64,000 bases of DNA from contig FZQV01000001.1 in the NCBI GenBank assembly GCA_900199505.1, positions 62,001-126,000 of the forward strand, read 5' to 3'. Position 1 is the stretch's first letter. Each line of letters begins with the position of its first letter. The DNA comes from Ruaniaceae bacterium KH17. GTDB taxonomy: Bacteria; Actinomycetota; Actinomycetes; Actinomycetales; Actinomycetaceae. The notes under the pieces were generated by a model. It saw only the letters and a program-made list of their open reading frames with translations. It made no database searches and was not told the origin of the DNA. The position numbers and the translations under genes are program-made. Positions 48,717 through 60,829 of the stretch are shown here, piece after piece.

Positions 48717-50291
48717 CTACAACGGCCAGATCAGCGGCACCAGGAAGATGCCCGCGAGTCCGTAGCACACGAGGAGCGGCAGCCCGAGCTTCCAGTAGTC
48801 ACCGAACCGGTACCCGGCCGCCTCCATCACCACGAGGTTGGCGGGGGTCGCCACGGGCGTGAGCAGCGCCCCGGCAGCGAACACGGCGATTGCCATCAGG
48901 ATCGGAATCGGCGAGACCGCCATCTCGGCCGCCGCCGCCAGCCCGATCGGCACCACGATCAGGGCGGTCGCCATGTTGCTGATCAGTTGCCCGAGCGCGG
49001 CGGTGATCACGAACAGTCCCGCCAGCAGCGCGTACGGACCGGCATCTCCCAGCAGTGCCACGAGGCCGTGTGCGAGCTGCTCCGCGGCACCGGAGTGCTC
49101 CATCGCCACGGACAGCGACATCATTCCCGCCACCATGATGATGGTGGTCCACGAGATGCCCTGGTAGGCCCGCTCGACGCTCAGCGCACCCGAGAGGATG
49201 ATCGCGATCGCGGCCGCGATTCCCGCGACCGGTGGTGGCACGAGTCCCGTCGCCAGCAGCACCACCATCACGCCGAGGATACTGAGCGCGCGCTTCGCGC
49301 CGATCCCGAGCGGCACGGCCTGGCGGCGGACGTCCTCCGGCAGGTCGACGGCGATCAGGCCCGGGTCCTCGGCGGCCAGGTCGAGCGCGCTCCACTCGCC
49401 TCGCAGCAGGAGCCTGTCCCCCGCGCAGAGCACGGCTTTTTTCGGCGCCGTCTGCCTGTCGCGCACCTCGTCCCCGCGATGCACCGCCGCCACCACGAGG
49501 TTCCCGCTCTCGGTGACCATCCCGGCGTAGACCTCGTCGCCGATATAGTCCGAACGCGGCGGCACGATGAACTCGGCGAGCCCCACATCGCGCCCCATGC
49601 TCGGTCCATCGAGTCGCAGCCCGTAGTGGGAGGTCAGGAGCAAGCCGTGCGCTCCGAAATCACGCAGCGCTCGGCGCGGAGAGCGCACGGGCACCAGCCG
49701 CGCACCGAGCAGGAGTGCCACGACGATCGTGATCACGAGTAGCGGTGCTCCCACGAGTGCCACCGAGAACAGCCCCACACGATGCCCGCTGACGTCCTCG
49801 ACATAGTCCGCCAGCACGAGGGTCACCGGCGAACCCGTCAACATGAGGAGCGAGCCGGCATGCGCCGCGAAGGCGGCGGGAAGCAGCAACTGAGAGGGCG
49901 AACGCTTCCCGCGCACCGCGATCGCCACGATCACGGGCGTGAGCGCAGCAACGGAGCCGTTGGGGGTGATCAGCGCGGTCAGCACCGCCATCATCACCAT
50001 GAGCGTGACGAGTAGCCGAGTTGAACTGGTGCCGGCGTATCGCAGCGCAAGGTCCCCCACCCACGCGGTCACTCCCGTCGCGTCGAGGGCCTCGCTCACC
50101 ACGAAGAGGGCGGCGATGAACAGCACGGTCGGGTCTCCGAAGCCTGCCACGGCCTCCGGCAGGCTCAGCACACCCGTCGCCCACAACGAGACCGGGACCA
50201 GCATGGCGACGACGGCGATCGGCAGCCGATCCCAGATGAAGAGGGCCACCGTCACGGCCAGGATGATGAGTGTGATCAGGCTGTCCGCCAT
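48717..50291 (-). CDS. SLC13/CitT-type anion permease with TrkA-C insert
   Basis: A 524-residue permease: about six helices, a central cytoplasmic RCK/TrkA-C-like domain (GPSMGRDVGLAEFIV, GDRLLLRGE; residues ~215-305) and six more helices with the re-entrant motifs LITPNGSVAALTP and ISNMATALIVVP. Members carry dicarboxylates, citrate or sulfate with sodium. Last gene of the pepA-abgT-glutaminase operon, 12 bp after the glutaminase stop. ATG 50291 has AAAGG seven bases upstream. A role in exporting or importing the glutamate-derived acids of this operon is inference. Confidence 0.88.
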   Translation of the reverse strand: MADSLITLIILAVTVALFIWDRLPIAVVAMLVPVSLWATGVLSLPEAVAGFGDPTVLFIAALFVVSEALDATGVTAWVGDLALRYAGTSSTRLLVTLMVMMAVLTALITPNGSVAALTPVIVAIAVRGKRSPSQLLLPAAFAAHAGSLLMLTGSPVTLVLADYVEDVSGHRVGLFSVALVGAPLLVITIVVALLLGARLVPVRSPRRALRDFGAHGLLLTSHYGLRLDGPSMGRDVGLAEFIVPPRSDYIGDEVYAGMVTESGNLVVAAVHRGDEVRDRQTAPKKAVLCAGDRLLLRGEWSALDLAAEDPGLIAVDLPEDVRRQAVPLGIGAKRALSILGVMVVLLATGLVPPPVAGIAAAIAIILSGALSVERAYQGISWTTIIMVAGMMSLSVAMEHSGAAEQLAHGLVALLGDAGPYALLAGLFVITAALGQLISNMATALIVVPIGLAAAAEMAVSPIPILMAIAVFAAGALLTPVATPANLVVMEAAGYRFGDYWKLGLPLLVCYGLAGIFLVPLIWPL

Positions 50292-50303
50292 CACGAGACC
50301 TTT

Positions 50304-51281
50304 CTATCTGACGGGCGCGGAGGCGAGCAGGTCCAACCCCAGGCCGCGAGAGAGGAAACGCGCGGCCTTCCCGCCGCGGACACTGTTTCCCGCGCCATCG
50401 AGCGGCGGCGAGAACGCCCCGAGCGCACCCTTTCCCGGCGAGACGGTCACGATGCCGCCACCGATCCCGCTCTTGCCCGGCTGCCCGACATCATAGAGCC
50501 AGTCCCCGGACTCCTCGTAGAGACCGGCGGTCAGCATCACCGCGAGCACCGCATGGCACACCTCGGACGTGACCACCCGCTCTCCGGTGACGGGGTTGAC
50601 GCCACCGTCCGCCAGTGTCGCGCCCATCGTCGCCAGATCCCGCGCCGTGACGGTGAGGCAGCTCTGCCGGGTGTAGAGATCGAGCGCGAGATCGGGATCG
50701 CAGCCGAGCAGCCCGCGGGCATGCAGCAGGTTCACGGCCGAACGGTTGACGTGATTCGTGGCGGCGGCCGAGCCGAACACGGCGTCGTCGAGCTTCAGTT
50801 CCCGCCCGGCGAACGCCGAGAGGCCGGCGCGTACCGGCTCCCACTCGTCCGCACTCCAGCTGACTGTGGCGATCGCCCCCGGGTTCACCATGGGATTCGT
50901 TCGGCCACCCGGCGCGCGCTCGATCGCCTCGATGGAGTTGAAGGGCAATCCAGTGGCGTTCGTGCCGATGAGCCGCCGCGCCGCATCGACGCCATGGGCC
51001 TGGCAGGCGAGTGCGAAGCTGAACGGTTTCGCCACGCTCATGATTGGAAAGGGATGATCCGCGTCCCCCGCGGCATGCGCCGTTCCGTCCACCTCCAGCA
51101 CGCACAGTCCGAACAGGCTCGGGTCCGCGCCCGCGAGCGCGGGATAGACGCTCGATGGCGCCCCCTCATCGCACGCACGGAAGATCTCGTGCGCGCGCGC
51201 CACGAGATCGTCGACGGCGCCGTGTGGCGGGAGGCCCCCCGTCGAGACGAAGGGGGGCCCGCCATCCTCGCGAGGGCTCAC
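50304..51281 (-). CDS. glsA: Glutaminase
   Basis: A 325-residue enzyme of the beta-lactamase-like glutaminase fold hydrolysing glutamine to glutamate and ammonia. The Ser-x-x-Lys nucleophile is in SVAKPFSFALA; RTNPMVNPGAIATVS, the Asn/Tyr region LYTRQSCLTVTARDLATMG and GKSGIGGGI are family motifs. The start is inferred as GTG at 51281 within a GTGA overlap with abgT; no strong ribosome site is seen, which fits translational coupling. Ammonia from glutamine can raise cytoplasmic pH, so an acid-resistance role is possible. Confidence 0.88.
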   Translation of the reverse strand: MSPREDGGPPFVSTGGLPPHGAVDDLVARAHEIFRACDEGAPSSVYPALAGADPSLFGLCVLEVDGTAHAAGDADHPFPIMSVAKPFSFALACQAHGVDAARRLIGTNATGLPFNSIEAIERAPGGRTNPMVNPGAIATVSWSADEWEPVRAGLSAFAGRELKLDDAVFGSAAATNHVNRSAVNLLHARGLLGCDPDLALDLYTRQSCLTVTARDLATMGATLADGGVNPVTGERVVTSEVCHAVLAVMLTAGLYEESGDWLYDVGQPGKSGIGGGIVTVSPGKGALGAFSPPLDGAGNSVRGGKAARFLSRGLGLDLLASAPVR

Positions 51282-52918
51282 GCCACGGATGGGAGATAGC
51301 CCGGGCCGAGCGGGATGCCGAGCAGGAACCACGCGACGAACATGATCACCCAGACCACGAAGATCGCCGCCGAGTACGGCAGCATCAGAGCCACCACCGT
51401 CCCGATGCCGGCCTTCTTGTCGTAGCGTTGCGCGATCGTGGCGATGAAGGGCAGGTACACCATCAGCGGGGTCAGCGCGTTCACCGGCGAATCCGCCACG
51501 CGGTAGGCGGCGAGCAGAGTCTGCGGCGCCACGTCCAGCCGGATGAAAAGCGGCACGAAGATCGGTGCGAAGATCGCCCACTTAGGTAGCGCTCCCGGCA
51601 TGATGAAATCGAGCAGCAGAATCACTAGCATGAATCCGATGAGCAGCGGCACGGCCCCGATATTGGCCTGTTCGAGGAGTTCGGCGAGCCCGCCCGCAAT
51701 CACGGTCGGCAGGTTGGTCCAGTTGAAGAATGCGATGAACTGGCTGATCATCAGCAGCATCAGCACCATGCCGCCGAGCCCCGCGAAGGTCTTGGTGATC
51801 GCCGCGATCACATCGTTCGCGCTCGTCATGGTGCGCGCGCCGATGCCGTAGCAGATGCCCGAGACGAGGAACGCCAGCATGATGATGAACAGCAGGGAGT
51901 CCATGAACGGCGTCTGGCCGATGATCGCGCCATCCACGGGATCGCGCAGCGGTGCCCCCGGGGGCGCGGTCAGCAGGACCACGATCAGGAGCACGGCGAG
52001 GATTCCCCACAGCGCGAAGCGCGAGCCGCGCTGATCGGCGTCGGGATCGGTCATGACCTCGTCCGCAACTGTGAGGCCACCCTCGGGGTTCCACGGGCCG
52101 AGCCGCGGCTCGACGATCTTCTCCGTCACCAACGCGGCCACCAGCGCCAGCACGAACGAGCTGACCAGCATGAACCAGTAGTTCGCCACGATCGAGAGCG
52201 GTTGACCGGCACCACCCATAGCCTCGTTGGCGATCTCGGTGATCATCGCGTCGATGGGGGTGGGGATCACGTTCACCATGAAGATCGTGGCGACGCCCGC
52301 GAAACCCGATCCGAGTCCCGCCAGCGGATGCCGTCCCACGCTGGCGAAGGCGGCGGCCGCGAGCGGGATCAGGATCAGGTAGCCCGCATCGGAGGCGGCG
52401 GAGGAGAGCACGCCGACCAGCACCAGCAGGAACGTCAGCGCCCACTTCGGCGCCGCGCCCACCAGCTTGCGGATCAGCGAGCCGAGCAGCCCCGATTCCT
52501 CAGCGACGCCGGCGCCCATCATCGCAATGAAGGTCACGGCGATCACGGAGAAGCCCGCGAAATTGTTGACGAACGAGGAGAAGATGAATCGCATTCCCTC
52601 GATCGAGATCAAGCTGTTGATCGGGACATCCACCTCGATGATGTCCCAGTCCTCCGGCGAGCTGCCCGGTTCGGTGATCGGGACCGTCAGATCCTCGTAG
52701 TACTCGTGGACCACGTCGGAGGTGACGTCGGCATCCTTGGGAACCGCGATCTGCTCGGTGATCGAGACTCCGAACAGGTTCAGGATCCACGAAAGCAGGA
52801 TCACGAAGATGATCAGGTACCCGAACATCAGGACCGGGTGCGGGACCTTGTTGCCGATCCGTTCGACGGCGCCGAGGAACCCGCCCGTGGACGTATCGTC
52901 AGAGACAGCCTTTGCCAT
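51278..52918 (-). CDS. AbgT-family transporter
   Basis: A 546-residue membrane protein with about eleven helices and paired re-entrant hairpins; SSAASDAGYLILIPLAAAAFASVGRHP and the C-terminal block (FMPG-like FIMPGALPKWAIFAP, LTPLMVYLPFIATIAQRY) are typical of AbgT/MtrF. The family imports p-aminobenzoyl-glutamate (AbgT) or exports sulfonamides (MtrF). Here it lies between a leucyl aminopeptidase and a glutaminase, which suggests import of glutamyl-type peptides or folate breakdown products. GAGAGGAA precedes the ATG at 52918. Confidence 0.92.
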   Translation of the reverse strand: MAKAVSDDTSTGGFLGAVERIGNKVPHPVLMFGYLIIFVILLSWILNLFGVSITEQIAVPKDADVTSDVVHEYYEDLTVPITEPGSSPEDWDIIEVDVPINSLISIEGMRFIFSSFVNNFAGFSVIAVTFIAMMGAGVAEESGLLGSLIRKLVGAAPKWALTFLLVLVGVLSSAASDAGYLILIPLAAAAFASVGRHPLAGLGSGFAGVATIFMVNVIPTPIDAMITEIANEAMGGAGQPLSIVANYWFMLVSSFVLALVAALVTEKIVEPRLGPWNPEGGLTVADEVMTDPDADQRGSRFALWGILAVLLIVVLLTAPPGAPLRDPVDGAIIGQTPFMDSLLFIIMLAFLVSGICYGIGARTMTSANDVIAAITKTFAGLGGMVLMLLMISQFIAFFNWTNLPTVIAGGLAELLEQANIGAVPLLIGFMLVILLLDFIMPGALPKWAIFAPIFVPLFIRLDVAPQTLLAAYRVADSPVNALTPLMVYLPFIATIAQRYDKKAGIGTVVALMLPYSAAIFVVWVIMFVAWFLLGIPLGPGYLPSVA

Positions 52919-52929
52919 GTTCGTTCCTC

Positions 52930-54405
52930 TCAGGCGGAGAAGTTGAGGGCGAAATCGATCAGCAGTCGGGTGCCCCACCCGGTGGTGCCCTTGTTGATCC
53001 AGCCACGGTCGGCCGGTGACTGCGCGGTGCCCGCGATGTCGATGTGCGCCCAGGGGATGCCGGCCACGAACTCGTTCAGGAAGAGCGCCGCAGTGATCGA
53101 GCCGGCATTGACGCCGCCCATGTTGCGCAGATCAGCGATCGTGGAGGTGAGTTCGCCGCGGTAGCGGTGCGCGAGCGGCAGTTCCCACACGGGCTCGTCG
53201 ACGCGCGCCGAGGCCGCCTTCAGCTGGCCGAGGATCGCCTCGTTGTTGCCCATGACGCCGGCGATCTCGGTGCCGAAGGTACGCAGGCAGGCGCCCGTCA
53301 GCGTCGCGATGTCCACGATCGCATCGACCTTCTCCTCGGTGGCGAGGACGAGGGCGTCCGCCATCACCAGCCGCCCTTCGGCGTCGGTATTGATCACCTC
53401 GACTGTCGTTCCGCCGCGCATCACAATGATGTCGCCCAGGCGCAGTGCCGATCCGGATGGCATATTGTCCGTGCACATCAGATAGCCGATGACCTCGTTG
53501 GTGCAACCGAGCTCCTTCAGCGCGGTCATCGCCGCGAACACAGCGCCCGCGCCGGTCATGTCGTTCTTCATGGTGGCGTGGATCTCGTCACCCGGCTTCA
53601 GTGCGAGACCGCCGGCATCGTACGTGATGCCTTTCCCGACGAGCGCCAGCCGCCCGCTCGGTGTCCCTTCCGGGCGGTAGCGCAGCTTCACCATCACCGG
53701 CGGCTCCTCACTGCCGAGGCTCACCCCGAGCAGCCCGCCGCACCCCAGCTCAACGAGTTCATCTTCGCCGACGACCTCCACTTCGAGCCCGGCGGCAGCA
53801 CCGATCTCGAGCGCCACCCGTCCCACCTGCGTGGGAGTGAGCATCCCCCCGGGCGTCCCGGCCAGATCGCGGGTGAGTTTGGCGGCCCGGACCAGCACCT
53901 CGCCGCGGGCGATGCCGGCGGCCAGATCATCCAGCCGTGCCTGCCCTGCGACGAGTTCCAGCGAATCGAGCCGCGCGTCGTCGGACTCGGCTCCGATCCG
54001 ATAGACATAGCGTGCGAGCGCGGCTCCTTCGACGGCCGCGGCGGCGACCTCGGAATCGGCCAGCTCACTAAGCGGCAGTTCAATCGCCAGGTGCGTGTGC
54101 GCGGGAACGGCGCGCGCGAGGGCGGCGGCCAGGTTGCGGACGGCGGCGAGATCCAGAGCGGAACGCTGCCCAGCACCGAGCAGGACGGTCACGGGGGCGT
54201 CGCCACCCGCCAGGACCAGCGTGGCGCCGGGCTTCGGTGTGAAGCCCAGTTCACTCGCGCGTGCGGCGCCAATGCCGGGCACGTCGTCGTCATCCGCGAA
54301 GACGACGACGCCGACGGCGGTCGCCTCAGCTGCGGCCTCAACGGCGCCGACGCTGAGCCGCCGCACCGGAAGTTCGAAGGGCGGATACGGGGCTTTGTGT
54401 GTCAT
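52930..54405 (-). CDS. pepA: M17 leucyl aminopeptidase
   Basis: A 491-residue cytosolic dizinc aminopeptidase. The variable N-domain spans 1-165 and the catalytic domain has the metal/active-site Lys in VGKGITYDAGGL, ATMKNDMTGAGAV, the signature NTDAEGRLVMADAL and ATLTGA. ATG at 54405 has GAGGAGG eight bases upstream, so the GTG further upstream is not used. First gene of a four-gene operon with abgT, glutaminase and an SLC13 permease; divergent from the P-type-ATPase-like gene. Confidence 0.95.
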   Translation of the reverse strand: MTHKAPYPPFELPVRRLSVGAVEAAAEATAVGVVVFADDDDVPGIGAARASELGFTPKPGATLVLAGGDAPVTVLLGAGQRSALDLAAVRNLAAALARAVPAHTHLAIELPLSELADSEVAAAAVEGAALARYVYRIGAESDDARLDSLELVAGQARLDDLAAGIARGEVLVRAAKLTRDLAGTPGGMLTPTQVGRVALEIGAAAGLEVEVVGEDELVELGCGGLLGVSLGSEEPPVMVKLRYRPEGTPSGRLALVGKGITYDAGGLALKPGDEIHATMKNDMTGAGAVFAAMTALKELGCTNEVIGYLMCTDNMPSGSALRLGDIIVMRGGTTVEVINTDAEGRLVMADALVLATEEKVDAIVDIATLTGACLRTFGTEIAGVMGNNEAILGQLKAASARVDEPVWELPLAHRYRGELTSTIADLRNMGGVNAGSITAALFLNEFVAGIPWAHIDIAGTAQSPADRGWINKGTTGWGTRLLIDFALNFSA

Positions 54406-54511
54406 CTGAGCAGCCTCCTCGTTGGGCACGCGCCACCGGACGGTCGCGCATACACACGGTAGTTCCCTCTATCCGGCCGAATCGGACGTTTCGCAGGAGC
54501 CAGGGCAAAAT

Positions 54512-54531
54512 CCCCCATTTCTAGGGGCGAA
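54512..54531 (+). promoter_or_regulatory. Shared GC-box, copy 1 (upstream of the ATPase-like gene)
   Basis: CCCCCATTTCTAGGGGCGAA. The outer CCCC/GGGG are complementary around ATTTCTA. A near copy lies at 59855-59873. A -10-like TAGACT follows at 54548-54553 and would start transcription about 54560, at an ATG encoding an eight-codon leader ORF (MAPDLFAR, stop 54585-54587). Candidate operator for the linked LuxR-type regulator. Confidence 0.55.
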
Positions 54532-54597
54532 ATGCCCCCACACGCCCTAGACTCGGCGGCATGGCCCCTGATCTCTTCGCCCGTTGAGCGAGCGGCG

Positions 54598-57051
54598 GTG
54601 AGTACCCCTCCATTCGAGTGGCCCGATGGACTGTGCGAGACCGAGGCGGCACTGCGGCAGCGGCCCGAAACCTCCAATGCGTTGCGGCTACGGCCAGCAC
54701 GCACCTGGCGCATCGCCCGCCGAGAGAGCATCTTCACCGTCTTCAACCTGAATCTGATCGGGCTGGCAGTCATCCAGTTGATACTCGGGGCGTGGGTCTC
54801 CGCCTCCATGTCGCTGCTGCTGCTCGGCGCCACCACCGGCGTCAGGATCGCGCAGCAGCTGCTCGCCGATCGCCGGATGCAGCGCTACCGGGATGCCAAC
54901 CCGGTGTGCTACTCGGCGATCCGGGAGGGACGCCTGCGCGATGTGCCCGCCGACGACGTCGTCGCCGGAGACGCGCTCGTGGCAGGCCCAGGCGATCAGA
55001 TTATCGCCGATGGCCCACTGCTCGGCCCCGGCCCCGTGACGGTTGACACCTCCATCCTCACCGCCGGGCAGAGCTGGCGGCGGATCGAGCCGGGAGAGAC
55101 GTTGCATGCCGGATGGTTCGTGTTGTCCGGGCGGGCCGTGTACCGGGCCGAACGAATCGGGGAGGATCGCACCATCGCCGCGCACGCTCGCTCGGCGCAG
55201 TCCCACGCCGCGCACCCCACGCGACTGGAGCGGCTGATTGCACGGATCCTGCGGATCCTGCTGATCGTGGTGGGCGTCTTTGTGGCCATCCTGCTCGCCA
55301 AGTTCCTCCGGATCGATATTGGGGAGCACGGCGATACCCTCGCCCAGGCCGCGCCGGTGATCTTCTCCCTGATCCCCACCGGCATGTACCTGATGATCAT
55401 CGTCTCCTACGCAGTGGGAATGGTGGAACTCGCCCAGCATGGCGGCCTCGTCCACAGCGCCCGCTCGATCGAGACTCTGGCCGAGACCACCGTGCTCTGC
55501 TTCACAGAGGCGGGAACACTCACTGGCACGGCGCTCGATCTCACCGTGTGCGCCGATCCCTCCGGCGCGCCGATCTCGCGCTCGCGCGTGCGGCAGGCGC
55601 TCGGGGACTTCGCGCGCTCCACCACAATGCCGACGGCGGCAGGGCGCCTGCTCGCGGACGAATTCGAGGGCGAGAAGCGCGTGGTGCGCGACGAGAGCGC
55701 GAACCTGTCCACGCTCGGCTGGAGTGCGCTCAGCTATGGCGAGCGGGACGCGCACGGCACCTATGTGTTCGGGCGCCGCGATGTCCTGGCGCCGCAGCTC
55801 ACGGCCCCGCTGCCCGGCGGCGAGGAGGAGGGAAACACGAAGGTCTTCGTGCTCGCGCACCGCCCGGAGGCCGTTGCGCTGCGTGACGCGGCGGGCACTC
55901 CCGCACTGCCGGATCAACTGATGCCGCTCGGCCAGCTCAGCATCGGCGAGGACGCGGACGCCGATGTCGCAGACGTGATCCGGGCCTTCCGGCGGGCGGG
56001 CGTGGAGGTGAAGGCTTTCGCAGTCGGCGGCGCGGATCTGCTCCTGGGCCTGTTGCGCGCGGGAGGCATGACACCTGCGGAGCTCTCCGCGATCGAATCC
56101 GGGGGCATCCTCTCACGGCGGGAGCTTGAGGAGATCCCCCGCGCCGAGTGGGGGCGCGCCGCGCGCGAGCACATCCTGTTCGGCGGCCTCACCCCCGTTC
56201 AGGTCGCCGAACTCATCCAGACCCTTCGGGACGACGGCGAGGTGGTCACCGTCGTCGGCGACGGCATCTCCGATCTGCCCGCGCTTTCGGCGGCAAGCCT
56301 GTCCGTCGCGCAGCCCACTAGCACCCAAGCCGCCGTCGGCATCGCCGACATGGTCTTGCGCCAGAATGAGCCGCGGGTCCTGCTGGACGTGCTGCGGCAC
56401 GGGCAGCGGATCGTGGGCGGCCTACTCGACGTCATCAAACTCAACATGAGTATGGTGATCTGCACAGCCCTGCTGATCGTCTATGTACGCACCTTGACAG
56501 TCGGCTTTCCGTATCTCTCCAGCCAGGGATCGATCATCTCAATCTTGACCGCGACGATCCCTTCAATCTTCCTCGGGCTCTTCCCGCCACCGCCGCCGGA
56601 CGAGTTCAACACGCGGTACGCGCAGACGATCATCCGATTCTCGGTGCCGGCTGGCGTGCTGCTCAGCCTGGTGGGTCTCGCCGTCTACGAGTTCGAGGTG
56701 ATCACCACGGGCAGCGTGCCAACGGCGCAGCTCGCCGTCGCCTATCTCCTGCTGTACGCGGGGCTGGCGCTCAACTTGATCATCCGGCCCCGCCGCAGGT
56801 TCGCCATCCTGATCGGCGTCCTCACCCTCGCGGGAACGCTGGCGCCGCTCCTGCCGCAGGCCCGGCGCCAGTTCCGGATCGACTGGATGGAGCCGCACCA
56901 CTACCTCGTGTTGGCTGCGGCCGTCGCCATCTGGCTGATCGCCGTGAATCTGGTGTGGCGCTACCTGGGGTTGCGCAGGCAGGACGGGAGAATCGTGGAA
57001 GGCACGGGGGAAAGGACCACGCGAGATGCGCAGGCACATCGGAATCGTTGA
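54598..57051 (+). CDS. P-type ATPase-like membrane pseudoenzyme
   Basis: An 817-residue protein with the full P-type layout of CtpE-like HAD-IC ATPases: helices 1-2 (~25-70), actuator domain, helices 3-4 (~205-260), P/N domains and six C-terminal helices (~590-790). Key catalytic residues are replaced. The phosphorylation motif DKTGTLT reads TEAGTLT (303-309), the actuator TGES is TAGQS (near 155), and the M4 ion-site motif PEGL is PTGM. The hinge GDGISDLPAL is kept, so the fold is maintained but no phosphoenzyme can form. GTG 54598 is the preferred start; ATG 54532 would add 22 residues reading through the operator. The 3' end overlaps the response-regulator gene by 26 bp, pointing to a joint signalling role. 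Confidence 0.85.
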   Translation: MSTPPFEWPDGLCETEAALRQRPETSNALRLRPARTWRIARRESIFTVFNLNLIGLAVIQLILGAWVSASMSLLLLGATTGVRIAQQLLADRRMQRYRDANPVCYSAIREGRLRDVPADDVVAGDALVAGPGDQIIADGPLLGPGPVTVDTSILTAGQSWRRIEPGETLHAGWFVLSGRAVYRAERIGEDRTIAAHARSAQSHAAHPTRLERLIARILRILLIVVGVFVAILLAKFLRIDIGEHGDTLAQAAPVIFSLIPTGMYLMIIVSYAVGMVELAQHGGLVHSARSIETLAETTVLCFTEAGTLTGTALDLTVCADPSGAPISRSRVRQALGDFARSTTMPTAAGRLLADEFEGEKRVVRDESANLSTLGWSALSYGERDAHGTYVFGRRDVLAPQLTAPLPGGEEEGNTKVFVLAHRPEAVALRDAAGTPALPDQLMPLGQLSIGEDADADVADVIRAFRRAGVEVKAFAVGGADLLLGLLRAGGMTPAELSAIESGGILSRRELEEIPRAEWGRAAREHILFGGLTPVQVAELIQTLRDDGEVVTVVGDGISDLPALSAASLSVAQPTSTQAAVGIADMVLRQNEPRVLLDVLRHGQRIVGGLLDVIKLNMSMVICTALLIVYVRTLTVGFPYLSSQGSIISILTATIPSIFLGLFPPPPPDEFNTRYAQTIIRFSVPAGVLLSLVGLAVYEFEVITTGSVPTAQLAVAYLLLYAGLALNLIIRPRRRFAILIGVLTLAGTLAPLLPQARRQFRIDWMEPHHYLVLAAAVAIWLIAVNLVWRYLGLRRQDGRIVEGTGERTTRDAQAHRNR

Positions 57052-57661
57052 CGACCATCCGGCGGTGGTGCTCGGCGCCACGAGCATCATCGGCGTTCAC
57101 AGCAGCCTCTTCGTCAGCGGCACCGGTGCCACGGTTGCGGAACTCCTCGAGCACGGCTCGCACTTCGATCTGGTGCTCCTCGATCTCACCCTCCGTGACG
57201 GCTCGCGCCCCGCCGAGAACGTCCGCACCCTCACCGCCCATGGGATCCCGGTGATCATCTTCACCAGCGGCGATGAGCCGCGCCTCGTCCGCGAGGCCGC
57301 CCGGGCCGGCGCGATGGGGATGGTGCTCAAGACGGAGCCGCCGCAGAAGATCATCTCGGCGATCGTCGCCGTGCTGCGCGGAGAGGTGGCGGCGACGACG
57401 GACTGGGCGGCGGCGCTCGACGCGGACGAGGAGTTCGTCTCGGCCGCGCTCACCGATCGCGAGACCGAGGTACTCGCGCTGTATGCCGCAGGCGAGACCG
57501 CCGAGCGTGTGGCCCGGCAGCTGTTCATCTCACGTGAAACGGTACTCGATCACATCCGGCGGATCCGCTCGAAGTACACGGCGATCGGCCGCACGGCTCC
57601 GAGCAAGCTCGATCTCTATCATCGCGCCGTCGAAGATGGGATCCTCCCGCGGGAGCGATAA
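57026..57661 (+). CDS. NarL/LuxR-type response regulator
   Basis: 211 residues. The receiver domain has acidic pair D9-D10, phospho-acceptor D53 (VLLDLTL), T80 and K102, all intact. A LuxR-type HTH follows at ~140-200 (LTDRETEVLALYAAGETAERVARQLFIS split across the turn, with RETVLDHIRRIRSKY as recognition region). It overlaps the end of the ATPase-like gene, so the two are co-translated. The intact kinase at 58652-59794, convergent to it, is the likely cognate partner. It probably binds the GC-box found upstream of the ATPase-like and 59911 genes. Confidence 0.9.
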   Translation: MRRHIGIVDDHPAVVLGATSIIGVHSSLFVSGTGATVAELLEHGSHFDLVLLDLTLRDGSRPAENVRTLTAHGIPVIIFTSGDEPRLVREAARAGAMGMVLKTEPPQKIISAIVAVLRGEVAATTDWAAALDADEEFVSAALTDRETEVLALYAAGETAERVARQLFISRETVLDHIRRIRSKYTAIGRTAPSKLDLYHRAVEDGILPRER

Positions 57662-57665
57662 GCCC

Positions 57666-58673
57666 TCAGAGATCGCCGATGGGAGTTCCATCGGGGGCGA
57701 ACTCGCGGCGCCGGACATCGCCGCCGGCGTCGAGCAGAATCGACACCGTTCCACCACGGCGCTGCGGAACGAACCGAATGGTGGCATCCGTGACCCGTTC
57801 GTCCTCCAGCAGCGCGATCAGGTGGGCGGCGAGCGCGTCCGAGATCACACCCGAGGCCTCCTCCTCGGCGCCCACCACCTTCACCGCCACGCCGCGCCGC
57901 TGCGCATCCCCGATCGCGCGCAGGAGTTCCCGGTGGGTGGGCACATCGCGGCGCAAGAGTGCGCGCACGTGCGAATCGGCCGCCCGCACCTCGCCGTGCA
58001 ACTCGGGCGTCAGGTTCTCGCCCTCCACGAGCCGCCGCAGAATCGGCTCGACGACGGCGGGGACTTCGTGGCGGATCCACTGGTGATGCGCGAGGCGGCC
58101 ATGCACGGCGTCCGTCCGCACAACCGTGGTGAGCTGCTCGGCAAGCACGGGAGCGCGGTTGACGGCGATGGCCCGCCAGATCAGGAAGAGCCCCCACATC
58201 ACGGCCACGGGTACGAGCGATCCCGCGGCACAGCCGAGCGGTTGCGCCGCCGCGCAGGTCACGGCCGCACCCGTTCCAGCTTGCAGCGCGAGGATCACGA
58301 CGGCCGAGACGGTCCCGACGACGATGTTCCCACGCAAGATCAGCAATGCCACTCCCACGCACAGCAACCCGAGCCCATAGCCCGTCCCCCCACCCGGTGG
58401 CCTGAGGACCACGAGCAGCGCGGCCACGCCGGTGATGCCGACCATCAGGACCTCGTGCGGCCACGGAAGCGGCCCGGGGCGGCGGCGGGTGACCACCACG
58501 CAATCGATCAGCGCGGCCACGAGCACGAGCCAGTGCGCGAGTGTCCACGCGGCGAGGGGCGGCACGGCACGGCCCACCACGGCACCGGCCACGATCGCGA
58601 GGCCCGCGAGAACGAGCGTGGGGCGCGCGAGTGGATGCGAGAGCGGGGAATCTACTCGCCCGGACGGTTCCAT
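57666..58673 (-). CDS. Degenerate histidine-kinase-like membrane sensor
   Basis: 335 residues: six N-terminal helices (TLVLAGLAIVAGAVVGRAV, AHWLVLVAALIDCVVV, and others to ~165), a helical DHp-like region (WIRHEVPAVVEPILRRLVEG) and a C-terminal ATPase-like fold (GVAVKVVGAEEEASG, ALAAHLIALLEDERVTDATIRF). No N-box Asn or Gly-rich G boxes can be seen, so ATP binding is doubtful. It overlaps the intact kinase gene upstream by 22 bp. Likely a co-sensor or dimer partner without its own activity. Confidence 0.75.
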   Translation of the reverse strand: MEPSGRVDSPLSHPLARPTLVLAGLAIVAGAVVGRAVPPLAAWTLAHWLVLVAALIDCVVVTRRRPGPLPWPHEVLMVGITGVAALLVVLRPPGGGTGYGLGLLCVGVALLILRGNIVVGTVSAVVILALQAGTGAAVTCAAAQPLGCAAGSLVPVAVMWGLFLIWRAIAVNRAPVLAEQLTTVVRTDAVHGRLAHHQWIRHEVPAVVEPILRRLVEGENLTPELHGEVRAADSHVRALLRRDVPTHRELLRAIGDAQRRGVAVKVVGAEEEASGVISDALAAHLIALLEDERVTDATIRFVPQRRGGTVSILLDAGGDVRRREFAPDGTPIGDL

Positions 58674-59794
58674 CCGATCACCACCCTCGTCCCTTGAGCG
58701 CCGCTGTCAATCGTGACGCGACCGCCGTCGAGTTCCAATATCCGCCGGATGATGCTCTCGCGCACACCGAAGTGCGCGGCTCCAATGGCCTCGGGATCGA
58801 AGCCCGGGCCGGTGTCGCTGATCGTGACGACGATCGTGCCGTCCGCTGCGAGGACCGAACCGCTGCCGCCAACTGCGTGGCGCGCGGCGTTCCGGGCGGC
58901 CTCGGCGGCCGCCAGCCCCACGGTGCTCGCGGCGACAGAAGAAACCCATCCTGCCGTGACCGCCGAGGCGACGGCCACGCCCGGGGCCGCCTCCGCCGTC
59001 AGCGCGCGGATCAGCTCCGCCGCGTCGGACGATCTCAGTTCGATCGGCTCGGTGACCGGTTCGCCATCGGCCCGCGCGAGGCTCCGTAACGCCACTGATG
59101 CACTCCGGCGCAGCTCCTCGGGAGGCTCGCCGTCGAAGAGCAGCGCCGCACCGAAGGTCGCGAGCACTTCGTCATGCACCTCGCGGGCGAACGCCTCGAA
59201 CCCCGCCGAGGCTGCCTGGATCCGTTCGTCCTCCGCCCGCAGTTGCTCCGTCACTTCGCGGACGCGGTGGTACTCGACGAGCTGCGCACGCAGGGAGTAC
59301 ACAAGCATCACGACTGCGATGTTCGCGCAATGCACGAAGCCCGCCGCAAGTACCGAATCGGGGATATCACCGAGGAACGCCAGCGCGGAGAGCGGCACGG
59401 CGGCGGAGAATGCGATGACGGCCGCGAGGACGTAGGGAATCCGCAGGACGAGCACCAGCGAGGAAAGCGCGATCGCGTCCCACCACCAGCTTTGCGGGGA
59501 CGGTACGAACTCGCCGTTGCCCGTCCACGCGAGACAACTGAGGAGCAAAGCGAGAAACAACACGGCGGGCTGCGCGATCCAGATCGCGCGCAGCACCACC
59601 GCCGGTAGCCGGAACCATCCCACGGCGGCAAGCACCAGCAACAGCGGCGGGATCGAGAGGAGGAGTCCCCACCACGGCGCGAACTGCCCGGCCTGCGCGA
59701 GAAGAGCGGGAATGCTTGCGAGCGCGGCAGCGATGCCGAGTAGTGCGATGCCGAGACCGATGCTCCGGTCAACCGGACTCCACGTGTGTGTCAC
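58652..59794 (-). CDS. Membrane sensor histidine kinase (HisKA_3 type)
   Basis: 380 residues: about six helices in the first 170, a coiled linker, the phospho-acceptor H207 in REVHDEVLATF and an HATPase domain with N-box EAARNAARHA (N302), G1 ISDTGPGFDP (327-332), G2 GVRESIIRR and a final GTRVVIGW. It is the only protein of the locus with a full set of kinase residues. Adjacent to and convergent with the LuxR-type regulator, its expected substrate. Divergent from 59911, with the second GC-box between them. Confidence 0.88.
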   Translation of the reverse strand: MTHTWSPVDRSIGLGIALLGIAAALASIPALLAQAGQFAPWWGLLLSIPPLLLVLAAVGWFRLPAVVLRAIWIAQPAVLFLALLLSCLAWTGNGEFVPSPQSWWWDAIALSSLVLVLRIPYVLAAVIAFSAAVPLSALAFLGDIPDSVLAAGFVHCANIAVVMLVYSLRAQLVEYHRVREVTEQLRAEDERIQAASAGFEAFAREVHDEVLATFGAALLFDGEPPEELRRSASVALRSLARADGEPVTEPIELRSSDAAELIRALTAEAAPGVAVASAVTAGWVSSVAASTVGLAAAEAARNAARHAVGGSGSVLAADGTIVVTISDTGPGFDPEAIGAAHFGVRESIIRRILELDGGRVTIDSGAQGTRVVIGWNRPGE

Positions 59795-60314: not shown

Positions 60315-60683
60315 CTACTCGCTCGCGGCGCGAGCGAGGGTGCCGATCTCGGTGCCGGACGCGTCGAAGATGTGCAGAGTATCGCCCTCAACGCTCCCGG
60401 TGCTCAGGCCGACGAGCCAGGTGTCCACGCCTTCACAGAACATCATCGTGGATGCAACTTCGCCGAAATCGACGCCGTCGCCGTCAGTCTTCTCCCACGA
60501 TCCCATGAGCTGGTTGCACCCGTCCGTGCCGCTCAGGGCGCCGTCGTCGGCAAGCACGAGCTGCGGCTGACCCTCGGCTTCGGTGCCCCAGGTGCCCTCA
60601 GGTCCGGCGGAGCCGCCGTCCGAGCAGGCGGAGATCAGGAGCAGGGACGCGGCGAGACCAGCCGCCAACTTCATCGTTCTCAT
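60315..60683 (-). CDS. META-domain lipoprotein
   Basis: 122 residues: signal with lipobox LLISAC, short Gly/Ser linker, then a META/HslJ domain starting GTWGTEAEGQPQLVL with LSGTDGCNQLMGSW and VASTMMFCEG (the family's conserved Asn and Cys positions). Exported and membrane anchored; HslJ relatives affect drug tolerance, but the role here is unknown. The -10-like TACAGT about six bases before ATG 60683 suggests leaderless translation. Convergent with gene 59911. Confidence 0.82.
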   Translation of the reverse strand: MRTMKLAAGLAASLLLISACSDGGSAGPEGTWGTEAEGQPQLVLADDGALSGTDGCNQLMGSWEKTDGDGVDFGEVASTMMFCEGVDTWLVGLSTGSVEGDTLHIFDASGTEIGTLARAASE

Positions 60684-60829
60684 GCGGACACTGTAACGCA
60701 CACGCGGCGCCCGGCCCGGCCCCGCGAGGCCCGCACGGAGCAGATCCCTCACATATGGGGATGCGCCCGGCGGCGACCGCACTGCGAACGGCACGCACAG
60801 TCCACGCCCGCGCCGGATACGATTCTCTC

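Follow-up and report, generated by a model that had tools for sequence, protein, structure and literature searches.

A rare family of P-type ATPase-like proteins without the phosphorylated aspartate, often encoded near glutaminase genes

The 64,000-nucleotide stretch of Ruaniaceae bacterium KH17 analysed here (the window; contig FZQV01000001.1, positions 62,001 to 126,000 of the forward strand) carries on its plus strand, at 54598..57051, the gene of a pseudo-P-type ATPase, a protein with P-type homology in which the phosphorylated aspartate is replaced. The reading frame is uninterrupted for 817 codons from a GTG at 54598 to a TGA at 57051; an alternative upstream ATG at 54532 would give 839 residues, and alignments with homologues begin at about residue 4-18 of the 817-residue form. 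According to the accessible text of PMC10654040, pumping in the P-type cycle proceeds via a phospho-aspartate. Direct reading of the window protein gives FTEAGTLT, LTAGQS, IPTGM and GDGISD, and so bears out an original prediction for this gene that TEAGTLT, TAGQS and PTGM stand in place of DKTGTLT, TGES and PEGL. The codon at 55504..55506 encodes Thr303 where canonical pumps have the phosphorylated Asp of DKTGT, the degenerate TGES of the A domain lies at 55060..55074 and the PTGM of membrane segment M4 at 55375..55386, all on the plus strand. This is above chance: the protein matches E1-E2_ATPase (PF00122) with E=1.2e-29, and nine orthologues share the same altered site. Its hydrolase domain falls under the Pfam cut-off (18.2 vs 26.4 bits), and it passes the general P-type model of NCBIfam, TIGR01494 (95 bits vs a cut-off of 62.3), so annotation by family model would name it 'HAD-IC family P-type ATPase'. 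By hydropathy the family profile has ten hydrophobic segments, placed as in canonical pumps, and the window protein alone has nine at the same cut-off. The codon-position GC of the gene (0.70/0.49/0.86) is like that of its neighbours.

The first searches covered 59 near genomes, the 213 genomes of the window's own family (its own included; E <=1e-60) and 396 genomes of the order (E <=1e-58), and the best other full-length matches were only ~25-31% identical, those that were read having DKTGT and TGES. Outside its own genome, the window's family (212 further genomes) gave no orthologue of the pseudo-ATPase. These searches suggested a singleton, a reading overturned by orthologues found in the family of Micropruina, to which we were led by scanning with an alignment of the window's response regulator, encoded beside the pseudo-ATPase, and regulators from loci of the histidine kinase HK1 (described below). 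Ten of the 198 genomes of the Micropruina family passed the threshold, eight with strong orthologues and two with ordinary pumps; G671 and G677, which carry DKTGT and TGES, were excluded from the pseudo set. The eight genomes hold nine orthologue genes, 43-52% identical to the window gene product (E 1.7e-167 to 1.5e-247), because genome G708 has two copies (L158 and L159, 71% identical), both in runs of DUF1269, glutaminase and pseudo-ATPase genes. None of the nine has an intact DKTGT, and a local mutation of an ordinary pump is ruled out by their sharing the altered site. In L155 and L156 there appears to be an N-terminal extension upstream of the ATPase body, with one extra hydrophobic stretch. 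A draw of 293 genomes from the order of Micropruina returned only four genomes, all already among those found, and of 394 genomes of the window's class only the window's own genome matched. The wide searches scored 2-5 first-look candidates per genome, so some family members may have been missed. A plasmid search gave seven records, all weak matches of <30% identity, and a scan of genome contigs with the window ATPase itself found no relative. Among the genomes sampled, the family is rare and patchy.

In all ten members, the window protein included, the Asp-Lys of DKTGT has become Thr followed by Glu or Asp, Thr303 being invariant. In the same ten, PEGL of M4 reads P[TS]G[LM], so that the PEGL hallmark of P6 (CtpE) pumps is absent, the P-domain Lys is lost, and Gly has taken the place of the Lys/Arg before the N-domain Trp. 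No member has an intact SGD triplet, although its Asp aligns in two (L154 and L159); TGES is likewise intact in none, with TGE absent from eight, among them the window protein, and TGER present in L160 and L161. GDGxxD is retained in eight of the ten and the Asn of GDGxND in none. The ten thus do not read as working pumps at the phospho-Asp, SGD/TGD or the P-domain Lys, nor eight of them, the window protein included, at the Glu of TGE(S), while P-type homology runs through the set (at E <=0.001, PF00122 in 10/10, TIGR01494 in 10/10 and PF00702 in 5/10). Against 50 canonical sequences (L029 and duplicate loci left out), 101 columns are >=95% conserved in the canonical set, and of these 37 are kept (in >=9/10 pseudo members), 25 partly kept and 39 lost.

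A tree of the ten members with 22 chosen canonical rows places the pseudo-ATPases together in one clade at the end of a long stem, with an SH-aLRT support of 100 by a quick method. Its neighbours are the intact pumps L162/L163 (support 94) and then L018/L035 (95), outside the canonical pumps that we take to be P6-like, a label given from motif and size and not by comparison with CtpE. No CtpE sequence was included in this quick tree, and because its branches are long the exact sister of the clade is unsure. Nei-Gojobori dN/dS is 0.12 in the closest of four closer pairs and 0.25, 0.32 and 0.35 in the others, and 0.26 at a dS of 1.7 between the window gene and its nearest orthologue; all pairs reported are below 1. 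With GC-rich codons and divergence of this size, dS is probably underestimated by the method. The close pairs are therefore under purifying selection, and relaxed selection is not indicated, in agreement with the earlier claim of a protein kept intact over 817 codons without pump chemistry. Together with this selection, the invariance of Thr303 argues for a retained altered state and not decay. As read from the sequences, one clade has lost the phospho-Asp and most catalytic residues and has kept ten membrane segments and part of the A/P framework.

Constraint has also shifted along the protein, as judged from nine pseudo sequences (L156, a near-copy of L155, was dropped) and 12 chosen canonical P6-like pumps. 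The predicted extracytoplasmic loop between M3 and M4, residues 235-252 (55300..55353, plus strand), is conserved in the pseudo set, at 1.24x the family average identity, and variable in the canonical P6-like set, at 0.61. When 18-residue windows are scanned along the protein, constraint has risen most at residues 237-254, in the predicted outer loop between M3 and M4 and the start of M4. Taken as such a window, loop 235-252 stands 8th among 772 in gain; with a second canonical set as reference it is 20th, and residues 239-256 come top. A gain at this loop is as expected if the outside face has acquired a new role. The largest losses are at 84-101 and 189-206, flanking the A domain, followed by the SGD segment, the stretch after M6 and that around TGES. 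M4 and M5 stand at 1.49x and 1.29x the family average identity in the pseudo family, the relative constraint of M6 is down (1.09x vs 1.36x in the canonical P6-like set), and the LTKT motif of M5 is gone.

P6-like pumps with PEGL are among the best intact-pump matches in related genomes. Judging from the accessible parts of PMC10654040 and PMC5615198, the P6 (CtpE-type) Ca2+ uptake pumps resemble the pseudo family in whole-length similarity, a size of ~800 residues and ten membrane segments; CtpE, as described there, has all functional motifs and VPEGL, whereas the pseudo family is without DKTGT, PEGL and the P-domain Lys. The best solved-structure matches of the family profile are 6zhf, a calcium-transporting ATPase (E 7.5e-52), with which profile positions 4-322 and 368-781 align, and the related Listeria Ca2+ pump lmo0841 (9euq; E 2.2e-51). 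Unlike the pseudo family, both are catalytic pumps with DKTG at the aligned site. A P-type body without its chemistry is nonetheless credible, because the accessible text of PMC6592433 reports a degenerate P4-ATPase domain within a signalling protein, Plasmodium guanylyl cyclase beta, which likewise has a P-type body without most signature residues. That domain, on the same source, is eukaryotic, of the P4 type and fused to a cyclase, whereas the pseudo family is bacterial, stand-alone and encoded in a glutamine/peptide gene island. Among the open-access papers listed (subscription literature lay outside the scope), none was found to describe a bacterial family of stand-alone P-type pseudo-pumps.

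In the window the pseudo-ATPase gene is divergent from a cluster on the minus strand that comprises genes for a PepA-type M17 leucyl aminopeptidase (52930..54429, likely start 54405), an AbgT-family transporter (51278..52978), an open reading frame with a glutaminase (50304..51581, the Pfam match lying inside 50307-51344) and a CitMHS/SLC13-type transporter (48717..50294). A META-domain protein detected by Pfam is encoded at 60315..60794, also on the minus strand, and six relatives carry a META gene on the strand opposite to the pseudo-ATPase, immediately downstream of it. The flanks compared reached up to 20 kb per side (~2.5 kb in G639, and on one side 6.7 kb in G663 and 6.9 kb in the window). 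Glutaminase, the commonest enzyme partner, lies within 5.2 kb of the pseudo-ATPase in seven of the ten loci; the other neighbours are DUF1269 (7), CitMHS (6), PepA (6), AbgT (5), a MalT-type regulator (6) and a META lipoprotein, near in seven loci or in eight when the window's own is counted. In four loci DUF1269, glutaminase and pseudo-ATPase follow one another in this order on the same strand, the last two genes being 4-13 bp apart. Most members of the family are thus encoded among genes for the use of glutamine and peptides. None of five canonical P6-like pump loci, with 4.7-10 kb of flank per side, has any of the 17 reference genes used for these comparisons. According to the accessible text of PMC6250119, E. 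coli has a glutaminase-dependent acid tolerance, AR2_Q, that works with YbaS and GadC. The recurrent glutaminase is the point of likeness; AR2_Q uses YbaS and GadC, whereas the neighbours of the pseudo-ATPase are AbgT, CitMHS and DUF1269 (GadC was not searched for).

Two kinds of inverted repeat accompany these genes. One, ATCACCCG-n3-CGGGTGAT, was seen by eye upstream of four DUF1269 operons and two pseudo-ATPase genes; the search pattern was built from these six places, so only further places are independent. Five were found, three before CitMHS and one before glutaminase, the middle of the site lying 72-84 nt before the gene in these four, and a fifth, in L185, with no island gene. No match occurs in the 1,212 kb of 64 control loci or in 30 Markov-shuffled windows. 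The 11 places are L154:5018, L154:14096, L155:7152, L156:6647, L158:5753, L158:14828, L159:5919, L160:782, L185:11123, L186:12725 and L050:1947, and 10 of them precede DUF1269-glutaminase-pseudo-ATPase, pseudo-ATPase, CitMHS or glutaminase genes, marking out a candidate regulon. The other repeat, CCCC-N8-GGGG, is a candidate operator at 54510..54530 in the divergent region between pepA and the pseudo-ATPase gene, where scans for sigma-70 promoters and terminators found none. Its pattern was built from this region and the HK1/holin region of L050 (L050:13169); the further places, here too the only independent ones, are L062:9906, just upstream of the regulator, and L064:19771, without an island gene, and there is none in the same control loci. 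It is a possible binding site of the response regulator.

The regulator, of the NarL/LuxR type and with the receiver Asp, Thr and Lys present, is encoded on the plus strand at 57026..57661, its ATG at 57026 overlapping the pseudo-ATPase gene by 26 bp as originally described. Beyond it, on the opposite strand, lie HK2 (57666..58673) and HK1 (58652..59794), which had been called neighbouring kinases. That name suits HK1, a sensor histidine kinase with HATPase_c, the motifs VHDE and RNAARH, and H, N and G boxes. The membrane protein HK2 aligns with HK1 but has none of these boxes. Such a degenerate partner kinase is found beside HK1 in several genomes. The trio of regulator, HK1 and HK2 recurs as a module of its own in other actinobacteria. 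The best match, Micropruina L050 (75%, 51% and 43% identity for the regulator, HK1 and HK2), shares the convergent layout and many neighbours, yet is without the pseudo-ATPase. Within the window's own family the HK1 search gave two loci outside the window's genome (2/212 other genomes). One assembly of that family, with L043 (G203:C208), deserves a remark: its 4,914-bp contig has the same size and match coordinates as L070 (Propionibacterium sp.), and its regulator and kinase scores are nearly those of L069 (Acidipropionibacterium jensenii), so that contamination is possible.

Linkage between the pseudo-ATPase and this system is not a property of the family. A regulator lies within 14 kb in three of the ten pseudo-ATPase loci and is adjacent in the window only, and none of the 80 loci retained for relatives of the regulator shows a pseudo-ATPase in the flanks covered (<=10 kb per side, less where a contig ended sooner). 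Of the 198 Micropruina-family genomes, 10 have HK1 (E <=1e-45), two of the eight with a pseudo-ATPase vs eight of the 190 others, a co-occurrence that is suggestive only, the query alignment including the kinase of one of the two. In those two genomes HK1 and the pseudo-ATPase share a neighbourhood, with the regulator 3.1 kb away in G594 and 13.5 kb away in G701, where the kinase match spans part of the protein only. A coupling of the pseudo-ATPase and the two-component system is therefore plausible in the window genome, and a family-wide role as regulator input is not.

The phospho-Asp and most other catalytic residues being gone, a receptor or adaptor that does not pump is the likeliest role of the family, which is probably mislabelled as a pump by annotation. 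We put at roughly 45% the probability that it is a conserved P-type pseudo-pump that serves as a non-pumping membrane receptor or adaptor of a glutamine/peptide-use island. The pseudo-ATPase would no longer run the E1-E2 cycle or pump; its newly conserved M3-M4 loop and altered membrane core could sense an outside condition such as pH, a cation or an amino acid; the signal would then be relayed by its cytoplasmic body to co-encoded products, in four loci glutaminase and DUF1269. In the window the targets would be the divergent PepA-AbgT-glutaminase-CitMHS cluster, the response regulator and the HK1/HK2 pair. The island might then serve nitrogen supply or, through release of ammonia from glutamine, acid tolerance, and by analogy with AR2_Q it possibly has a role in acid stress. 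In a more specific form of this scheme, which we advance only tentatively, a pump body would have become a membrane receptor: pH, an ion or an amino acid would be sensed at the M3-M4 loop, and the former A/P domains would act as the switch of the glutaminase/AbgT module, as well as of a two-component system in some genomes. Of the sensor, scaffold or receptor first proposed for the gene, the part that is supported is a protein kept intact without pump chemistry, and the part that is mostly not supported is its dedicated link to the regulator.

Several observations weigh against a receptor or adaptor of this island. With TGE surviving in two members and GDGxxD in eight, Mg or a nucleotide may still be bound by part of the fold, and dN/dS is higher in two more distant pairs (0.52 for L160/L161, 0.60 for the window gene and G594). 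A conserved outer loop would fit a channel as well, and a single-sequence structure prediction of the window protein (pLDDT 40.4, pTM 0.26) was too uncertain to be used. The neighbour counts ignore kinship, and the 17 reference genes came from the pseudo-ATPase loci and the window, most being chosen for recurrence, so that source loci count themselves. The G637 locus has none of the 17, and glutaminase is missing from the flanks covered in G594 and G663. Moreover, an intact P-type ATPase with DKTGT and TGES (L052:16255-19278) lies ~6 kb from a second Micropruina regulator/HK1 locus that has MalT-type regulators, an indication that nearness to island parts is not special to the pseudo form.

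Loss of the engine might instead have left a passive channel or carrier that lets an ion or small molecule through in support of the island's transporters. The conserved membrane segments and part of the core, above all M4 and M5, and the wealth of transporters (AbgT, CitMHS) would suit such a protein, but the reduced constraint on M6, the loss of the PEGL Glu from all ten members and of LTKT from M5, and the retention of a large A/P/N body that a plain channel would presumably not need make it rather unlikely. That the pseudo-ATPase is a dedicated input module of the overlapping regulator and the kinases, as the original prediction had it, draws on the 26-bp overlap, the shared neighbourhoods in G594 and G701, and the occurrence of CCCC-N8-GGGG both between pepA and the pseudo-ATPase gene in the window and upstream of the regulator (L062) or HK1 (L050). 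With HK1 in only two of the eight other pseudo-ATPase genomes, a regulator near in three of ten loci, and no pseudo-ATPase at the locus of the most similar regulator, we consider this distinctly unlikely; an input module of a new membrane signalling system would at best describe the window genome and not the family.

The protein could also be the non-catalytic partner of a working P-type ATPase, as heterodimer or competitor. A close homologue of the canonical, P6-like Micropruina pump (homologue motifs were not read) is present elsewhere in four of the nine pseudo-ATPase genomes, one copy being in pieces with a stop, but none was found in the other five, the window's genome among them, and no linked pump gene was seen when neighbours were compared with the 17 reference genes and coarse lists of open reading frames, which leaves a partner role improbable. 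At G701:C1:3183405-3185607 a canonical-type pump gene seems to be broken, its matches lying in pieces with an internal TGA, while the pseudo-ATPase gene of G701 is open. Similarly improbable is a P-type protein with changed chemistry, for instance phosphorylation of Thr303 or a nucleotide-binding switch: the invariance of Thr303 and the retained GDGxxD speak for it, and the loss from all ten members of the P-domain Lys and of the Lys/Arg before the N-domain Trp, with SGD intact in none, against it. A decaying relic or sequencing artefact, for which only the motif loss could be cited, has next to no probability left: 817 open codons, normal codon-position GC and purifying selection in close pairs oppose it, and nine open orthologues with the same altered site refute it.

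Few pumps are as well known as the P-type ATPases, and a clade such as this one would show what their framework can do without phosphorylation. If it is a non-pumping receptor or adaptor, the pseudo-pump clade would be a natural experiment comparable to what pseudokinases are for kinases, and the recurrent pairing with glutaminase makes a sensor or docking role in ammonia release or amino-acid use directly testable.

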